From IMG/VR virus record IMGVR_UViG_3300022752_004098, positions 1-35,501 of that record: a DNA stretch of 35,501 nt, one strand, 5' to 3'. The stretch's first letter is position 1, and every line of letters starts with the position of its first letter. The notes beneath the pieces are model-generated. The model was not told the DNA's origin. It ran no database searches and worked only from the letters and a program-made list of their open reading frames with translations. This DNA comes from a virus. Below, one piece after another: positions 6,229-35,501 of this stretch. The translations under genes were made by a program, and so were the position numbers.

Positions 6229-6918
6229 ATGCCGCGAAAAAAGAGCCCGCCACCAAGAGAGACAGCAGAGCGCGACGAGATCGTTGGTGCGCTCCTGTAC
6301 GCTGAGCACTGCCCCACGATCGAGGATCTGGTGGTGCGGCTGCACCGGCAGCTCGACCTGACCACGTCCGCCCTCGAGGCCACGTCGCAGGCGCTGCTGT
6401 CTCTGCGGCAGACCGTGACCGAGGTGCAGCAGGACCGCGATCGGGCGCGTGACCGGGCGGCGCAGATCGAGGCACAGCGGGCCGCCGAGTCGCAGCGTCT
6501 GGCGCTCGAGGCCGTGCGGCTGGCCGACGAGGTGGCACGAGCCCGTGAGGCGGCCGAGGCGTCGGACAGTAAGGCGCGCGCGGCGAGACAGGCGGCTGAT
6601 AGTGCTTGCAAGCTGGCTGCAGAGGCGCGCAAAACGGCGCAGGATACACGCGATATCCTCGGCGCGCGCGAGATTCCGACCGGCAAAAAGCCAAAAGTCA
6701 GCCCCGATGATGCGTGGGCGTGGCTGCGCCTCGAGCGCAGCGTCCGGCCGGAGCTCGGACCCCTGACCCGCGATCACCTGGCCGACCCGCGCGCGGCCGA
6801 CCTGCTGTCGGTCGTGTACCGAGCCCAGCGGGCACCGCTGGGCCTCGAGCGCGCCGACGCGATCCGCGATCTGCGGGCCGCACTGCAGATCACCCGTGCA
6901 CGACTGGAGACACCGTGA
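6229..6918 (+). CDS. Coiled-coil protein, first gene of replication operon
   Basis: This is a 229-residue protein with a basic N-terminus (PRKKSPPP) and a long coiled coil over about residues 30-145, dense in Ala, Arg, Glu and Gln (VQQDRDRARDRAAQIEAQR; ADEVARAREAAEASDSKARA). A C-terminal domain from about 160 to 229 is Arg/Asp/Leu-rich (DDAWAWLRLERSVRPELGP). The start has a good GGGAGGT. Heading the replication operon suggests a DNA-associated or structural accessory, for example an origin or replisome adaptor, but no family is recognised. Its end overlaps the next gene (GTGA). Confidence 0.65.
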   Translation: MPRKKSPPPRETAERDEIVGALLYAEHCPTIEDLVVRLHRQLDLTTSALEATSQALLSLRQTVTEVQQDRDRARDRAAQIEAQRAAESQRLALEAVRLADEVARAREAAEASDSKARAARQAADSACKLAAEARKTAQDTRDILGAREIPTGKKPKVSPDDAWAWLRLERSVRPELGPLTRDHLADPRAADLLSVVYRAQRAPLGLERADAIRDLRAALQITRARLETP

Positions 6919-7598: not shown

Positions 7599-8191
7599 TG
7601 GGGCGCGACTCTCTCGATCGGTACTACACCCCGGATGCCCTGGCGGACACCTGCCTGCAGGTGCTGGTCGAGCGCGTCGGGGTACTGCCTGAGGTAGTGC
7701 TCGAGCCGTGCGCAGGCGGCGGCGCGTTTGGGCGCGCGGCGCTGCGGCTCGGAGTCGGCCACGTCCGCGGCTGTGACGTCGATGCTGGCGCGCAGCCCGG
7801 CTACCCCTGCGCGCTGTCGAGCGCGGCAGACTGGCGCCCGCACTGGGCGCCGCGGCTGCCCGGCGACGTGTGGATCGTCACGAATCCGCACTACGCCGGC
7901 ATTTATGACACGGTCAGGACGATGCGCGCGTTGCAGGAGTACACCCGCGCACGGGTGCTGGCGCTGCTGCTACGGGCGACCACAATCGAGCAGCTGCTGC
8001 ACCGGGGCGACCCGCCCGCCGCGCTGTGGGTCAGTGACCTACGGCCGCGCTGGGGCGGGCCCGGCGGCGCTGCGCTGACCAGCGGCGATACCTGCGGGTC
8101 TGTGCTGGCTGTCTGGGGGCGATCTCCGCTGCGCACGGCCACGACGATTCACCCTATGCCTGCGTGGCGCGTGAAGGGGCGGGCGGCATGA
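7598..8191 (+). CDS. Small N6-adenine DNA methyltransferase-like protein
   Basis: This is a 197-residue protein. RYYTPDALADTCL at 8-20 is the usual lead-in of phage adenine methyltransferases. EPCAGGGAFG at 36-45 is the SAM-binding motif I, and GCDVD at 58-62 supplies the acidic motif II. The catalytic motif IV reads NPHY (96-99) instead of the usual NPPY/F, so activity is plausible but not certain. It is short for a full methyltransferase and lacks an obvious target-recognition domain. Within the replication operon it could protect phage DNA from restriction or mark replicated DNA. TGATG start overlap with the RuvC-like gene; ATGA overlap with the helicase. Confidence 0.75.
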   Translation: MGRDSLDRYYTPDALADTCLQVLVERVGVLPEVVLEPCAGGGAFGRAALRLGVGHVRGCDVDAGAQPGYPCALSSAADWRPHWAPRLPGDVWIVTNPHYAGIYDTVRTMRALQEYTRARVLALLLRATTIEQLLHRGDPPAALWVSDLRPRWGGPGGAALTSGDTCGSVLAVWGRSPLRTATTIHPMPAWRVKGRAA

Positions 8192-10131
8192 AGGCGCTCC
8201 CCTGCCCCCCAGGCCAGACTCCGCGTCTCTGGCAGACCCTCGCTCTGGGCGCGCTGCGCGACGCCGTACGCGGCGCAGGCCTGCGATCGGTCGTGATCAC
8301 GGCGGCGACTGGCACCGGAAAAGGCACGCTCCTGGCCGGTCTCGTCGCGCTCTACGTACAGGCGCGGCTGCGTGTGCTGGTCCTCGTGCACCGCGACGAG
8401 CTGATCCGCGATCTGGCGGGGCGCTGCAGCCTCGTCGGCGTCAGCTGTGGCATAGTGAAAGGCGCTGAGAACGGGATCCGGGCGCAGGCGGTGGTCGCGT
8501 CTGTGCAGTCGCTGCGCGGCGATCGGCTGGCCGAGCTGGGCCGCGTCGATCTCGTGATCGTCGACGAGTGTCATCACGCTCTGGCGCCCACGTATCAGTC
8601 GATCCTCGAGCGCGTCGCCTCCGTGCGGCAGTCCCTGGGACTGGGTCCGGTGCTGCACCTGGGACTGACCGCGACGCCGTTTCGCACCGCAAAAAGCGGC
8701 GGCGTCTCCGGACTCGGCGAGGTCTACCAGGCGATCGTGTACGAGCACGGGCTGCGCGAGGCGATCCTGGCCGGCGATCTCGTCGTGCCTCAGGCGATCC
8801 GCGTCGATACCCACGTCGAGCTGGAAACGCTGCAGGTGCGAGGCGGCGACTACGCCGAGGCCGATCTCGAGAGGCTGATCGACCACGACGAGCGAAACGC
8901 CGTCGTCGCAGACTGGTACGTCGCCAACGGCGGCGGGGCGCGTTTTCTCGGCTTTGCGGTATCGGTCGCACACGCTGAGCGGCTGGCGACTGCACTGCAG
9001 GCGCGCGGGGTCGCCTGTGAGGCGGTGCACGGCGGCCTACATCACCGAGATCGGGCGGCTCGGATCGCGGGGCTGCGGTCGGGTGTGCTGCAGGGTCTGA
9101 TCTCCCGCGATCTGCTTTTTGAGGGCTTCGACGCGCCTTTTGTCTCAATGCTTCTTGCGGTTCGGCCGACGGCGTCGCAGATCATCGCGCAGCAGCTACT
9201 CGGGCGCGGTCTGCGACTGCACCCCGGCAAAACCGGCTGTCTCGTCGTCGACTTTGTGCGGTATCTCGACGTCCTCGATCTCTCGACACTGCCCGGCCTG
9301 TCAGATCGAGGGACTGCCCCACAGACTACGGCCCGCACGCTGCAGCCTGGCGATCTGGTCGTGCATCGGTACGATGATCACGGCGTCGGGCAGATCCTGC
9401 AGCTGGTCGAGCACGCCGACGCACTGGCGCTCGTGCGCTGGCGGCCGACAGAGCCCGACGCGGTCGACCGCCGGCACGGCCTGGCAGAGCTGACCCGCGC
9501 GCCGAGGGCGGCCGTCGAGCTCGTGCCGATCCCGCTGCGGGTCACCGGCACGACCGAGACCCCGATCGCGATCCTGCCTGGCAGTGATGGTCGGCGGGCG
9601 TGGCCTTGGGTCGCGCTCGGCGCTGGCACGGGCCGCGACGTCCGGCGCTGGGTCGCTGTCGGCGAGCGGCACAGCGACCAGCCGACCCCAGAGGGACGGC
9701 TCGAGCGGCTGATCGTCGTCTGCGTCGAGACCTCGGGCGGGTGGGTGCTCTGGGCGGTCGAGGTGATCCGCGACAGCTCACAGCTCGACGGGGTGCGCTA
9801 CCGGGCGACACGTCCGCGAGATCCGGGACAGCGAGAGCCGATCGTCGAGCCCGGCGCGCTGGGTCGACTGGGCCGGATGCGGGCGGGAGAGGCGGTGCTC
9901 GCGCGCGCGCGGCTGGCACCGCCAGATCTCGCGGCGCCCTGGCGGCAGACCCCAGCGTCGGACGCGCAGATCCGGCGGCTGCGCGCGCTCCGGTACGCAG
10001 GCGCGACAGAGTCACTCACACGAGGCGAGGCGTCCGCGCTGATCGGCGCGGCGGAGGGCTGGCGGGCTGTGGTAGCCGCGCGAGCCGAGAACAGGCGACA
10101 GCACGGCAAAGGAGGCAACAATGGGGCGTGA
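8188..10131 (+). CDS. SF2 DEAD/DEAH-type helicase (DECH box)
   Basis: This is a 647-residue protein. Walker A is ATGTGKG (40-46); the Walker B box is VDECH at 125-129, TAT is motif III at 161-163, a motif V-like DLLFEGFDAP is at 308-317, and QLLGRGLR at 336-343 is motif VI. This order is that of SF2 helicases of the UvrB/type I restriction family (ResIII-like). From about 350 a C-terminal extension of nearly 300 residues follows, Arg/Leu-rich with beta-like stretches and unrecognised by me. It could bind DNA or a partner. Its place between methyltransferase-like and primase-polymerase genes suggests a role at the replication fork or in origin opening. Confidence 0.88.
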   Translation: MKALPCPPGQTPRLWQTLALGALRDAVRGAGLRSVVITAATGTGKGTLLAGLVALYVQARLRVLVLVHRDELIRDLAGRCSLVGVSCGIVKGAENGIRAQAVVASVQSLRGDRLAELGRVDLVIVDECHHALAPTYQSILERVASVRQSLGLGPVLHLGLTATPFRTAKSGGVSGLGEVYQAIVYEHGLREAILAGDLVVPQAIRVDTHVELETLQVRGGDYAEADLERLIDHDERNAVVADWYVANGGGARFLGFAVSVAHAERLATALQARGVACEAVHGGLHHRDRAARIAGLRSGVLQGLISRDLLFEGFDAPFVSMLLAVRPTASQIIAQQLLGRGLRLHPGKTGCLVVDFVRYLDVLDLSTLPGLSDRGTAPQTTARTLQPGDLVVHRYDDHGVGQILQLVEHADALALVRWRPTEPDAVDRRHGLAELTRAPRAAVELVPIPLRVTGTTETPIAILPGSDGRRAWPWVALGAGTGRDVRRWVAVGERHSDQPTPEGRLERLIVVCVETSGGWVLWAVEVIRDSSQLDGVRYRATRPRDPGQREPIVEPGALGRLGRMRAGEAVLARARLAPPDLAAPWRQTPASDAQIRRLRALRYAGATESLTRGEASALIGAAEGWRAVVAARAENRRQHGKGGNNGA

Positions 10132-10774: not shown

Positions 10775-10962
10775 CTGGCGCAGCGACTGAGGTGTCGTCG
10801 GTCCTCGAGCTGGTCCGGCAGACCCGCACCCTGCCGATCGGTGCACGTCTGCTCGGGGTCCTGCGCGATGATGGCTCGGCTGTCGTGATTTTCAATGGCC
10901 GCCGGGTGCACCTGCCGCCCGGCTACGTGCGCGCGATCGCGTCTGAGGTGCACGATGGATGA
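10771..10962 (+). CDS. Small protein upstream of primase-polymerase
   Basis: This is a 63-residue protein. A short helix (VSSVLELVRQTRTLP) is followed by beta-like DGSAVVIFNGRRVHLPPG and an acidic end. GTG start overlapping the previous stop (GTGA); its stop lies inside the start region of the primase-polymerase. The RxVxLPPG turn echoes a segment of the preceding protein, which may indicate related small domains. Function unknown. Confidence 0.55.
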   Translation: MTGAATEVSSVLELVRQTRTLPIGARLLGVLRDDGSAVVIFNGRRVHLPPGYVRAIASEVHDG

Positions 10963-13567
10963 CACGGCGACAGCGACAGCGGCGGCGGCGGCGGCGCTCG
11001 AGTACGCCCGGCGCGGGTGGCGGGTCCTGCCGCTGCACAGCGTCGATGGGCTGGGGCAGTGCACCTGCGGGCAGGTCGACTGCAAGAGCCCGGCAAAGCA
11101 CCCGAGAACGCCGGATGGGGTCCGCGGCGCGTCGAGCGATAGCTCGATCGTCGCGGCATGGTGGCACCGGTGGCCCGACGCGAACGTGGGGATAGCGACG
11201 GGGCCAGAGTCTGGCGTCTGGGTCCTCGATCTGGACCGACCGCACGATGACGAGGCCGATGGCGGAGACGCGGTCCTGGCGGTCGACCTCGACGCGATTG
11301 ACCGTGCCGCGGTCGCGCACACGGGCAGCGGCGGGCAGCACCTGATCTACGCGTGGCCGTCGTCGGGGCCGCCCGTGCGCAGCCGAGCTCGCGTCCTCGA
11401 TGTGGACGGACGGCGCGCCTCGGTCGATACCCGCGGGGTCGGCGGCTATATCGTCGCCCCGCCGTCGATCCACGCGACCGGCAGGCCCTACACCTGGGTG
11501 CAGCCTCCGGGAGACGAGCTGCTCGAGGCGAGCCGCACCCTGCTCCGTGCCGTGACCCGGCAGCGGGAGGCTGCCCCTGCCGCGTCTGTCGCCCCTCAGA
11601 CCGCGTGGACGTGCGAGGACACTACACGGGCCGCCCGGTACGTCGAGGGCGCTCTGAGGCGAGCCTGCGAGCGTATGGCGGCCGCCACGCCGGGCACCCG
11701 ACACGCGGCCCTACTCCGCGAGGGGGAGACGCTGGGCGGCTGGGTGCACCTCGGGGTCTGCCCTGAGCAGGTGATCGTCGAGCAGCTCGCGGCGGCAGCA
11801 CAGGCGGCCGGCGTCGAGGAGGCCGAGGCCCTCCGGACTGCCCGCGACGCTGTCACGCACGGTCAGGAGCGCCCACGGGGCCTGCCTGAGTCGTCGAGAC
11901 AGCCGAGCGACAGCGGGCCCGGCTGGGATGACGCAACTGAGATCGACGATCTGCACGATGACTGGTCGGACGAGGACTACGTGCCCGGTGTCGGTCACGA
12001 CGTCGAGGAGGAGGACCCTGAGATCAGCGGGGCACGCGTCCTCGGCAGGCCCCAGATCGTGATCTCGGGGCGGCAGCCGCGCGACGTCGTCGCAGACGCC
12101 CGCCGCGCTCTCGCGGACCTGAGCGGGCCGGGTCGGCTGTACTCACGCGACGGCCGGATCGTGCAGGTCGTGATCACGGAGCACGGCCCGGCGATCCGCG
12201 AGGTGGGCGGCGATCAGCTCACAGCCTGTCTGCTCGAGGCGGCAGATCTCGTGGAGCTGAGGCGCCCACGGGCGCGAGAGGCGACAGCGGGAGAGGCGCT
12301 GCTCGAGGAGCCGGCGCGCGCCGTGCCCGGCTACCTGCTACCCGCCGTCCTCGGCACGCGCGATGACTGGCTGCCCCTGCTGTCGCGCGTGGCGACCGCG
12401 CCCTACTACGACGCCGACGGCCGTCTCGTCAGCGTCGAGGGGTACGACGCCGCGAGCCGCGGCTATCTCTCCGAGGGGCTCGTGCGGCAGCGGCTGACAG
12501 TGGATGAGGCGCGGGCCGTGATCGACGACTGGATCGGCGATTTTCCGTTCGTTTCGCGGGCGGACCGAGCACACGCGATCGCTTTTGCCCTGACTCCGAT
12601 CGTCCGCGAGCTGATTCACGGGCCCGTCCCGATGACGGTTTTCGAGGCGCCGGCCCCCGGCACCGGTAAATCGCTGCTCATGCAGGTTTTGGCGACGGCG
12701 GCCACCGGGCGGCCTGTCGAGCCGACGCCGATGTCAACGCAGGAGGACGAGCGGCGAAAGGCCATGGGCTCGATGCTCTCGGAGGGTCGGCCGGTCGTGC
12801 TGCTCGACAACGTGCGCGGGCACCTGCACGATCCGGCGCTCGAGGGCGTGCTCACGAGCTATCCGACCTGGTCCGATCGGCGGATGGGCGGGCAGGAGCG
12901 GCTACGCGTGCCTGCGACGGCGGTTTGGGGATTGTCTGGTAACAACCTGACGATGAACTCGGACCTCGCGCGGAGGACGATCACGGTGCGGCTCGACGCA
13001 CGGTGCGCCCGCCCGGAGGCCCGCACAGGCTGGCGACACGCAGATCTACTGCGCTGGACGGCAGACCAGCGCGATCTGCTGCTCTCGGCCCTGCTGACGC
13101 TCGTGCAGACGTGGCAGCTCGAGAGCCGACCGGCGGGGTCTGCGACGCTGGGCTCGTACGAGGCGTGGGCCCGCGTCGTCGGCGGGATCCTCGCGGCGTG
13201 CGGGATCGAGGGGCTGCTCGAGGAGCGCGACACGCGGGCTGAGACGGCAGACCCTGAGACCGCGGAGTGGATCGGCCTACTGCGGCTCTGGCAGGTCGAC
13301 GTCGCGCTCCGCGGTCGGCGGTCCGCGGGCGAGCTCGCGGCGGTGTGCAGCGATCGCGGGCTACTGCTCAGCGTCCTCGGTGATGGGCAGCCCCTGTCGC
13401 GGGCCCGCCGGATGGGGGCGGCGCTGGGACGGCTGCGCGGGCGGGTTTTCGATCTGGGCGACTGTGAGGCGGAGGTCGTCGGCGGCGGGATCTTGCACGG
13501 CGTCGTCACGTACGAGGTGCGGGCGATCGATCGGCAGCCGCGCGCGGGGCAGGTCCTGAGCCTGTAG
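10955..13567 (+). CDS. Primase-polymerase fused to AAA+ helicase (replication initiator)
   Basis: This is an 870-residue protein, start at ATG 10955 with GAGGTG upstream. Residues 11-185 carry a bifunctional primase-polymerase (Prim-Pol) domain: YARRGWRVLPLH, a Cys/His-type CTCGQVDCKSPAKHPRT loop, Asp92-x-Asp94 (VLDLD), His129 (GGQHLIY) and DTRGVGGYIVAPPS at 158-171, which fit the known active-site layout. A linker region with an acidic stretch (320-358) follows. The C-terminal ATPase has Walker A PAPGTGKS near 566-573 and Walker B VVLLDNV at 614-620. Such fusions start replication in plasmids, satellites and some phages and unwind their own origin; the candidate origin lies directly downstream. 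No DNA polymerase gene accompanies it. Confidence 0.9.
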   Translation: MDDTATATAAAAAALEYARRGWRVLPLHSVDGLGQCTCGQVDCKSPAKHPRTPDGVRGASSDSSIVAAWWHRWPDANVGIATGPESGVWVLDLDRPHDDEADGGDAVLAVDLDAIDRAAVAHTGSGGQHLIYAWPSSGPPVRSRARVLDVDGRRASVDTRGVGGYIVAPPSIHATGRPYTWVQPPGDELLEASRTLLRAVTRQREAAPAASVAPQTAWTCEDTTRAARYVEGALRRACERMAAATPGTRHAALLREGETLGGWVHLGVCPEQVIVEQLAAAAQAAGVEEAEALRTARDAVTHGQERPRGLPESSRQPSDSGPGWDDATEIDDLHDDWSDEDYVPGVGHDVEEEDPEISGARVLGRPQIVISGRQPRDVVADARRALADLSGPGRLYSRDGRIVQVVITEHGPAIREVGGDQLTACLLEAADLVELRRPRAREATAGEALLEEPARAVPGYLLPAVLGTRDDWLPLLSRVATAPYYDADGRLVSVEGYDAASRGYLSEGLVRQRLTVDEARAVIDDWIGDFPFVSRADRAHAIAFALTPIVRELIHGPVPMTVFEAPAPGTGKSLLMQVLATAATGRPVEPTPMSTQEDERRKAMGSMLSEGRPVVLLDNVRGHLHDPALEGVLTSYPTWSDRRMGGQERLRVPATAVWGLSGNNLTMNSDLARRTITVRLDARCARPEARTGWRHADLLRWTADQRDLLLSALLTLVQTWQLESRPAGSATLGSYEAWARVVGGILAACGIEGLLEERDTRAETADPETAEWIGLLRLWQVDVALRGRRSAGELAAVCSDRGLLLSVLGDGQPLSRARRMGAALGRLRGRVFDLGDCEAEVVGGGILHGVVTYEVRAIDRQPRAGQVLSL

Positions 13568-13617: not shown

Positions 13618-13813
13618 TGCGTGTCTGGAGTACGCGCGATCAATCCTGCAGCGCCGCGGCTGGGTGGGATGGGGGCTGCCGAGGTGGGATAGACGGCCGC
13701 TGGGTGGGATGCGATCGGCTATCCCACCTCGTCGACAACACTGTATGGCAGACCCTAAACGTCGCGCTGGGTGGGATAGGTGGGATAGGTGGGTAATCAA
13801 TGCGAGGGGAGAA

Positions 13814-13872
13814 ATGCATATACGTAGTTATACGTATACGTAGATGTACGTACGTGTGCGCGCACGCACGTG
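13814..13872. other. Alternating purine-pyrimidine tract at centre of iteron array
   Basis: Three stretches alternate purine and pyrimidine: 13814-13826, 13829-13842 and 13844-13872 (29 bases without a break). The middle one contains the 12-bp palindrome TACGTATACGTA. Together they are less GC-rich than the surroundings. The sequence type favours Z-DNA or cruciform extrusion and easy melting, which suits an unwinding element framed by inward-facing iterons. Confidence 0.75.
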
Positions 13873-13941
13873 GGCGAGTGGCCGATTTATCCCACCTATC
13901 CCACCCCGCACGCTTACTATGACGTTGTGGTCGGCATTCAG

Positions 13942-13975
13942 GCGAGGTGGGATAGCTTTTTCTATCCCACCTCGC
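13942..13975. other. 14-bp perfect hairpin of two opposed iterons
   Basis: GCGAGGTGGGATAG (13942-13955) pairs exactly with CTATCCCACCTCGC (13962-13975) around the loop CTTTTT. A minus-strand copy would be nearly the same stem with an A-rich loop. It could be a single-strand initiation site, a cruciform or a transcript hairpin. Confidence 0.8.
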
Positions 13976-14005
13976 GGGGTGGGATGCGCCGCTATCCCAC
14001 CCCGC
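13974..14005. other. 12-bp perfect hairpin of two opposed iterons
   Basis: GCGGGGTGGGAT (13974-13985) pairs exactly with ATCCCACCCCGC (13994-14005) around an 8-base loop. It directly abuts the previous hairpin, and flanking bases differ (GAGG against GGGG) while each stem remains perfect, so base pairing appears selected. Confidence 0.8.
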
Positions 14006-14207
14006 TCCCCACCCGGCCGCGCCGGTTGCCCCCCCGCTGGCAGGTCCTGCCGCGGGGATGGCTTGCTCGACGGCGACGTCGGCGGTAGTGTGGCCGGGCG
14101 CTGGGGGGCCGGGGCCCCGCAAATGTCCGGTTTTGCGCACGCACGGTCAAAAAATCCAAGATCTTACAGCACGATAGCCGCCCACGACCGGGCCGCTCGA
14201 GGTGCAG

Positions 14208-34372: not shown

Positions 34373-34713
34373 CCGACCTGGCCCACCACGACTGCGGGCC
34401 CTGCCTGACTGGCGCGGACCCGGTCGCGCTGCACCTGCCCCGATCGCTGTCGCCGGTGGCGCGCGATCTGGTCATGGCGCGGCTGCGGCAGGGCGAGCGC
34501 ACGTACGGCGGGCCCCTGCGTGTGGGCTGGCCTGAGGCGTCGATCGAGGCGGTGCAGGAGGCGGCCGACCTGGTCGCGTACCTGGTCGCAGGATCGGCGC
34601 CGGTCGGGCTGCAGCTGGACGCGGTCGCGATGCTCGAGGGCGCGCTCCGCTGGCACGGGCAGACCCCATCACCCGCCGGATATGCCGGCTACCACGTCGG
34701 AGACGGCGCATGA
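34369..34713 (+). CDS. Small late protein, complete copy of the gene cut at position 1
   Basis: This is a 114-residue protein with GTG start overlapping the previous stop (GTGA). A short HxxCGPC motif opens it (AHHDCGPCLTGADPV), followed by helix ARDLVMARLRQGERTYGGPLRVGWPEASIEAVQEAADLVAYLVAG and an Ala/Leu-rich end. The GERTYGGPLRVGWPEASIEAVQEAADLVAYL segment resembles phage proteins that carry an RxRxxYG-like motif next to an Asp/Glu-rich helix, as in small MazG-like or dATP/dGTP-processing relatives, but the full motif set is lacking, so I leave the function open. Confidence 0.6.
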   Translation: MTDLAHHDCGPCLTGADPVALHLPRSLSPVARDLVMARLRQGERTYGGPLRVGWPEASIEAVQEAADLVAYLVAGSAPVGLQLDAVAMLEGALRWHGQTPSPAGYAGYHVGDGA

Positions 34714-34916
34714 CAGACTCAAAAATCGAGGCACGGGCAGAGGTCCGCGCGGCGCTGATCGGCCTGGCGCGGCTGGCCGCGCGGGCGCTGGCCTACTCAG
34801 TCGGTGGGTACACCCCACGCGAGATCGCGACGCTGGCGGCCGAGGCCGTCGCCGTCGCAGCCGATCTGACTGAGGCAGTCGCTGAGCTGCGCGTAGCTCG
34901 GCAGGCGGACCAGTGA
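34710..34916 (+). CDS. Small Ala-rich helical protein, second copy
   Basis: The 68-residue counterpart of the gene at 140-346, differing at two residues (Ser4, Val62). ATGA overlap with the preceding gene is kept. All remarks on the first copy apply; the near-identical protein despite base changes shows the frame is real. Confidence 0.75.
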   Translation: MTDSKIEARAEVRAALIGLARLAARALAYSVGGYTPREIATLAAEAVAVAADLTEAVAELRVARQADQ

Positions 34917-35353
34917 CGGCCTATCGGTGGGGCGCGACGTCGACGTCGCGGCTGCTGACCTGTCACCCGCTCCTGGTCGAGCTCTGGCAGCGCGTGATCG
35001 TGCGGCAGGGGCTGCCTTACGACCTGACCGTCGTCTACGGCCACCGGTCGCACGCTGAGCAGGCGGCGCTCTACGCGCGGGGTAGGACGACACCTGGGCC
35101 CCGCGTCACCAATGCCAAACCGGGGCAGAGCCGCCACAACACATCGCCGTCGCAGGCGATCGACGTCATCCCGATCGTCGCGGGCCGACCCTCGCCGGCC
35201 GACTGGGGGCCGATCGAGGCGATCGTGCCACACGTCCGCGCCGAGTGGATGGCCATGGCGGCAGAGGGTCGTGTGCCTGTAGGCGTCGAGCTCGTGTGGG
35301 GCGGCGACTGGGCGCTGCGCGACGGCGCACACTGGGAGCTGCGCGGGGTCTGA
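34913..35353 (+). CDS. Endolysin, second copy (M15 family)
   Basis: The 146-residue counterpart of the lysin at 343-783. Differences are Q for P at 32, Y for H at 36, K for R at 69, R for K at 74 and S for T at 78. The zinc-ligand positions His75, Asp84 and His140 are unchanged. Substitutions are conservative and lie outside the WGGDW end, as expected between strains under the same constraint. Confidence 0.9.
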   Translation: MTAYRWGATSTSRLLTCHPLLVELWQRVIVRQGLPYDLTVVYGHRSHAEQAALYARGRTTPGPRVTNAKPGQSRHNTSPSQAIDVIPIVAGRPSPADWGPIEAIVPHVRAEWMAMAAEGRVPVGVELVWGGDWALRDGAHWELRGV

Positions 35354-35384
35354 TCGTCGAGACAGAGCCGATCAGAGCAGCACG

Positions 35385-35393
35385 TGATAGCGT
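35385..35393 (+). promoter_or_regulatory. Possible extended -10 element, second copy
   Basis: TGATAGCGT corresponds to TGATAGCCT at 815-823. The TGATAG core and last T survive in a spacer that otherwise has many changes and one length difference. Confidence 0.3.
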
Positions 35394-35428
35394 GTCGCTG
35401 GGCCCTGTCTGCGGGCCGTGGAGGCACA

Positions 35429-35501
35429 GTGATCGCACAGGTGGACCCCGTCGCCCTCGCGCCCTACCTCGCAGGTCCTGGCGCTGCGACACTGGTGCTG
35501 C
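35429..35501 (+). CDS. Holin-like protein, partial (5' end; complete copy at 860)
   Basis: The frame begins at GTG with GGAGG upstream and runs to the window edge. The first 24 codons match the gene at 860-1213 with synonymous differences. Cut by the end of the window. Confidence 0.6.
   Translation, partial: MIAQVDPVALAPYLAGPGAATLVL

Follow-up and report, generated by a model that had tools for sequence, protein, structure and literature searches.

The origin of P4 comprises two separate cis regions (ori/crr). The winged-helix domain of the P4 alpha protein binds repeats at this origin (PMC4234260). Through their C-terminal domains, SaPI Rep and Cch2 bind iterons that lie downstream of the respective genes, and two hexamers are proposed to load at these sites (PMC7581432). 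pRN1 depends on a stem-loop of 100 nt located 3' of the gene for its Prim-Pol-helicase; the same study also noted a stem-loop in phage BIP-1 (PMC4234260). In Streptococcus phage Sfi21, the 302-bp noncoding region ('PER') that follows the primase/helicase genes carries an annotation as replication origin and functions as an origin on its own (PMC6356513). In this region we find two tandem GTAACTAA pairs, one at L095:6577/6585 and the other, in the opposite orientation, at 6664/6672, with an AT-rich core between them.

The window analyzed here, 35,501 bases long, comprises an entire viral record. Directly after a fused Prim-Pol-helicase gene it carries an array of GGTGGGAT octamers, which, judged from its sequence and that of its relatives, is very probably this phage's origin of replication, served by the Prim-Pol-SF3 initiator. 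The preliminary description had proposed an origin here, and its proposal is supported by relatives of the virus, by the arrays at 73 of 75 helicase loci described below, and by the annotated origin of Sfi21.

Like the window array, the Sfi21 origin lies directly 3' of primase/P4-family helicase genes and has opposed tandem octamer pairs and an easily opened core. It differs in its word, in an AT-rich core without a long alternating tract, and in having Prim-Pol and helicase as separate genes. The iterons of SaPI and SCCmec Cch2, likened by published description, also come straight after the gene for a D5-type initiator helicase (the window helicase model resembles SaPI5 primase-helicase, Z 13.6), but the words are others and the Cch2 site consists of only three short direct repeats. 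pRN1 likewise has a fused Prim-Pol-SF3-winged-helix protein (a winged-helix-like end is predicted for the window protein), an origin directly 3' of the gene, and a long stem closed by a large loop (PMC4234260), whereas it is described as a stem-loop without iterons and no alternating core is reported. P4 alpha, again by description, is a primase-helicase with a winged-helix domain that binds origin repeats; its primase, unlike that of the window, is of the TOPRIM type. The parallels with Sfi21, SaPI/Cch2, and pRN1 indicate that the window element is a variant of an already known kind of origin. The earlier statement that no described origin is known with this exact layout does not hold: inverted tandem iterons surround an easily opened core at Sfi21, and the essential pRN1 stem-loop and the iterons downstream of SaPI rep genes are further precedents.

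The iteron array and its core

The GGTGGGAT octamer occurs in 12 exact copies between 13663 and 14001 (7 on the plus strand and 5 on the minus strand), with partial copies extending the array (Table 1). The entire record holds 14 copies, compared with a mean of 1.05 and a maximum of 4 in shuffles. The array begins 96 bp 3' of the Prim-Pol stop codon (13567), so that multiple short iterons adjoin the initiator gene. On these points the preliminary description was accurate: it had counted twelve octamers in both orientations, placed them right after the primase-polymerase/helicase gene, and described inward-facing tandems with 9-bp spacing (13770/13779 against 13889/13898). The start of its interval also stands, and its end, 14005, falls a few bases past the last exact octamer. 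The left outer pair 13703/13721 is offset by 18 bp.

Table 1. Coordinates of the array and of neighboring genes in the window
Feature	Position	Strand	Details
SF2 helicase gene	8164..10131	+	Upstream of initiator; vir525 (archaeal virus) has this gene order
Prim-Pol + helicase gene (890 aa), proposed initiator	10895..13567	+	
Left outer iterons	13663..13728		Plus 13663, 13683, 13703; minus 13721; kept in three relatives
Left spacer	13729..13769		Sequence diverges among relatives
Left inner arm	13770..13795	+	Tandem 13770, 13779, third (partial) copy 13788 (GGTGGGTA); 9-bp period
Core	13796..13888		51% GC vs 70% for the genome; holds most of the lowest-GC 60-mer, plus TACGTATACGTA
Alternating purine-pyrimidine (Z-DNA-prone) tract, 29 bases	13844-13872		Longest in record, next 14
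Right inner arm	13889..13905	-	Tandem 13889, 13898, opposing left arm
Right outer iterons	13946..14013		Plus 13946, minus 13964, plus 13978, minus 13994, partial minus 14008

An 18-base probe retrieved eight contigs from IMG/VR. In three of these, the relatives G002, G003, and G004, the Prim-Pol-helicases are 66-74% identical to that of the window and the array lies directly 3' of the gene. Alignment with these three relatives shows that octamers, spacings, and inner arms are retained, while most intervening bases differ. The distance between outer and inner iteron starts is 47-49 bp on both sides; that from 13721 to 13770 is 49 bp, as in the relatives. Words and spacings kept amid diverged spacers are the pattern of putative binding sites under selection. 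In DNA searches, no named phage showed direct similarity to the array, and a helicase scan with the near-identical profile A5 returned known relatives only. A match in L004, with low GC, a single tandem pair, and no array, was discarded as a chance occurrence.

Folding of the inner element yields a 24-bp stem with a loop of ~95 nt (z -7.1), comparable to the stem-loop that pRN1 requires (PMC4234260). The protein might thus read this large inner-arm structure, as in the pRN1 model, with the repeats mattering only through pairing. We consider this unlikely, as the outer iterons contribute nothing to the stem, yet the word is kept in nearly all copies while the spacers have diverged, and a stem has no need of tandem repetition at 9 bp.

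On the reading of the array as an origin with word-specific binding sites, the iteron sets flank what appears to be an easily opened core. The less-GC tract noted between the arms is confirmed: the record's lowest-GC 60-mer starts at 13793 (38% GC, against about 70% for the genome). TACGTATACGTA occurs once, at 13831-13842. The 29-base alternating purine-pyrimidine run, also noted earlier, is indeed located between the inner arms, and its length was unmatched in 200 shuffles of the array region (0/200). Core GC is lower than locus GC in 25 of 27 lineages. In 26 of 49 Prim-Pol clusters, no alternating run in the whole locus is longer than one within the 400 bp 3' of the gene (1.5 expected by position), usually ~100-150 bp past the stop codon; coding DNA may disfavor such runs, and other intergenic regions would be the fairer control. 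The longest run follows the gene in 7 of 11 clusters (66 of 75 loci) of the helicase-picked set. Compared with shuffles of the same 400 bp, the run reaches p 0.05 in 28 of 59 regions and 0.01 in 22. The overall alternation fraction of the cores is not elevated (0.51 versus 0.52), indicating that the signal is one local tract and not the whole core. These tracts vary in sequence between lineages (e.g., ATGTGTGTGCGCATATGTGCGCACATG and CACACACGCGCATGCGCGCACGCACGCACG), and many lineages have no long alternating tract.

We tentatively suggest, with the odds somewhat against it, that the alternating tract could be a conserved working part in which selection acts on a physical property (formation of Z-DNA or a B-Z junction in negatively supercoiled DNA) rather than on the sequence, and that in GC-rich viruses this tract would replace the AT-rich unwinding element of D5-helicase origins such as that of Sfi21. 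Whether a Z-prone tract can stand in for an AT-rich unwinding element is a question that these loci raise. A literature search of incomplete coverage found nothing on point that links Z-DNA to iteron or phage origins.

GC skew in phages often merely follows transcription. A skew switch at the array, which the preliminary description had put forward as a check, is absent; skew is positive on both sides of 13.7 kb and across most of the genome, making this the one prediction that failed. The ends of the record (1-931 and 34571-35501) are 94% identical with two gaps, and the unit is therefore probably ~34.6 kb. This imperfect terminal redundancy could stem from circular permutation combined with variation between strains, or from a repeat that has diverged. 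Between 16576 and 34184, most of the tested structural-module proteins have no PHROG match, as in a poorly sampled virus lineage.

The proposed initiator and the iteron word

The proposed initiator consists of an N-terminal AEP Prim-Pol domain (Pfam match, E 1.6e-36), a D5-like SF3 helicase, and a putative C-terminal winged-helix-like domain. The helicase half has no informative sequence match in Pfam or PDB, including a PDB search with the window profile, and profile comparison with P4-family helicases revealed no sequence relation. The fold search did relate them. A helicase-half model built from 36 relatives (pLDDT 87) matches the SaPI5 primase-helicase, vaccinia D5, and the C-terminal region of NrS-1 with Z scores of 12-14 (SaPI5, 13.6; vaccinia/mpox D5/E5, about 13.5). 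These matches place the window helicase family in the P4/D5 group by fold, and the initiator is accordingly predicted to have a D5-type SF3 helicase, a fold that large eukaryotic DNA viruses employ as well. The C-terminal end of the model is predicted to form three helices and a beta hairpin, and its C-terminal part aligns to SaPI5 chains.

The iteron word differs between lineages, allowing residues that track it to be sought in the protein. Across 36 non-redundant proteins whose iterons carry GGGAGG or GGAAGG (A2-type set, outside the window clade), such residues have a mean z of 3-4 in the helicase/C-terminal half and 0.2-0.5 in the Prim-Pol half. This supports, but does not prove, a link of iteron class to the helicase/C-terminal half rather than to the Prim-Pol half, because relatedness is uncorrected and the gene end physically adjoins the array; such physical linkage could account in part for their joint inheritance. 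Arrays are also found beside helicases without a fused Prim-Pol, in RcapNL, AmM-1, and Pan4.

Both results bear on the possibility that the iterons are template sites where the Prim-Pol domain starts primers, and not duplex sites for the helicase half. NrS-1 polymerase starts primers at TTTGGTTA or GTGG, and GGTGGGAT includes GTGG, which is among the best NrS-1 priming motifs (PMC8718748). Further, in 25 of 33 lineages the G-rich strand tends to point to the core, an orientation that would send primers outward. A priming role is nevertheless improbable: the helicase half, not the Prim-Pol half, appears to predict the iteron class, arrays occur where no Prim-Pol is fused, and GTG is absent from most iteron words (e.g., TGGAAGG and TGGGAGG).

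If the iterons are instead duplex sites within an origin, the C-terminal winged-helix-like domain of the Prim-Pol-SF3 helicase would bind GGTGGGAT as duplex, and the opposed inner tandem arms, ~100 bp apart, would position two self-loading hexameric helicase rings face to face. The low-GC core with its alternating tract would be opened by these rings under negative supercoiling, and the Prim-Pol domains would prime the exposed strands, allowing two forks to depart. The outer iteron pairs probably serve as extra binding sites or in firing control.

Two other functions were weighed. Several iteron pairs form hairpins and the region is flanked by two genes of a single operon, as might be expected of an operator or terminator controlling replication-gene transcription. 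No T run follows any iteron hairpin, however, and the symmetric layout, the easily opened core, and the match to the Sfi21 origin would be left unexplained, which makes such a role very improbable. Least probable of all is a packaging (pac/cos) or partition site, where repeats are common: the terminase large subunit gene starts ~1 kb downstream (14963), but the array follows the helicase gene even in viruses with other downstream genes, and the iteron word appears to track the helicase.

Distribution of the layout among virus lineages

The loci for the class survey were picked by protein alone. At least five two-orientation 7-mers are present in the 430 bp after 78 of 109 fused Prim-Pol-helicase genes, compared with 66 of 5787 control windows. 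A strict layout (tandem pair, gap, inverted tandem pair) was detected in 15 of 49 protein clusters and in none of 1960 shuffles or 2414 control windows; with a relaxed layout, the counts are 27 of 59 versus 4 of 2356 controls. Picking loci by homology to the window helicase half alone gave a two-orientation array after the helicase domain at 73 of 75 loci (9 of 11 clusters), again with words that differ between lineages. The words include TGGGAGG, TGGAAGG, CGGAAGG, CGAGGGT, GACAGTT, and others. Some loci, such as L055 and L193, have no array by these measures. The helicase genes of Rhizobium phage RR1-A, a Thermaerobacter plasmid, RcXuper, and phiAsp2 likewise have no array after them.

Arrays were also identified beside the P4-family helicases of the named phages AmM-1, RcapNL, Mae-JY28, and Pan4, and probably phi105. 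The archaeal virus vir525 (Methanosarcinales) has a matching gene order and a GCGGGTAT array. The preliminary description had suggested looking for the array beside Prim-Pol genes in relatives; it is found there, and the opposing case of relatives without an array was not borne out. Across the surveyed loci, the layout of these putative origins is constant while the repeated word changes between virus lineages, and the class is widespread.

Three aspects look new: how broad the class is, the constant layout under changing words, and the conservation in the core of an alternating tract that diverges in sequence. Single cases (Sfi21, SaPI, P4, and pRN1) become one origin class that can be found from sequence alone and spans tailed viruses of bacteria and archaea. 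It provides a large natural collection of initiators matched with iteron words, from which to learn how D5-type helicases read and open origins.

The array and alternating tract of L255 (4224-4572) and its relatives lie in frame within the 3' end of the helicase gene, and the arrays of some other clusters are placed likewise. The element is thus not always a free-standing noncoding one, and in L255 a candidate origin would be written into the coding sequence of its initiator. L018 (7414-7530) has three tandem copies of GCGGGGGAT opposing three inverted copies ~65 bp apart, directly after the helicase domain and within an open frame.

In Bordetella phage BIP-1, a GTTTGCCTC pair opposes a GAGGCAAAC pair around a core with CATACGTGTACATG (L264:2602-2716, corresponding to AY526909 26,601-26,715), ~460 bp past the gene. 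This site may make a better candidate origin than the stem-loop published for this phage.

Four GGTGGGAT copies each are present at L008:1590-1715, L009:467-592, and L010:7660-7785, as outward-facing pairs around an AT-rich core of ~100 bp. No recognized helicase gene adjoins these pairs, and the L008 site is upstream of a terminase gene. Finally, L003 (2596-2850) carries ten copies of GTGGGATA directly 3' of the gene for a DUF5906 helicase. The strand polarity is opposite and the core is alternating; this virus combines another primase-helicase type with a nearly identical iteron word.
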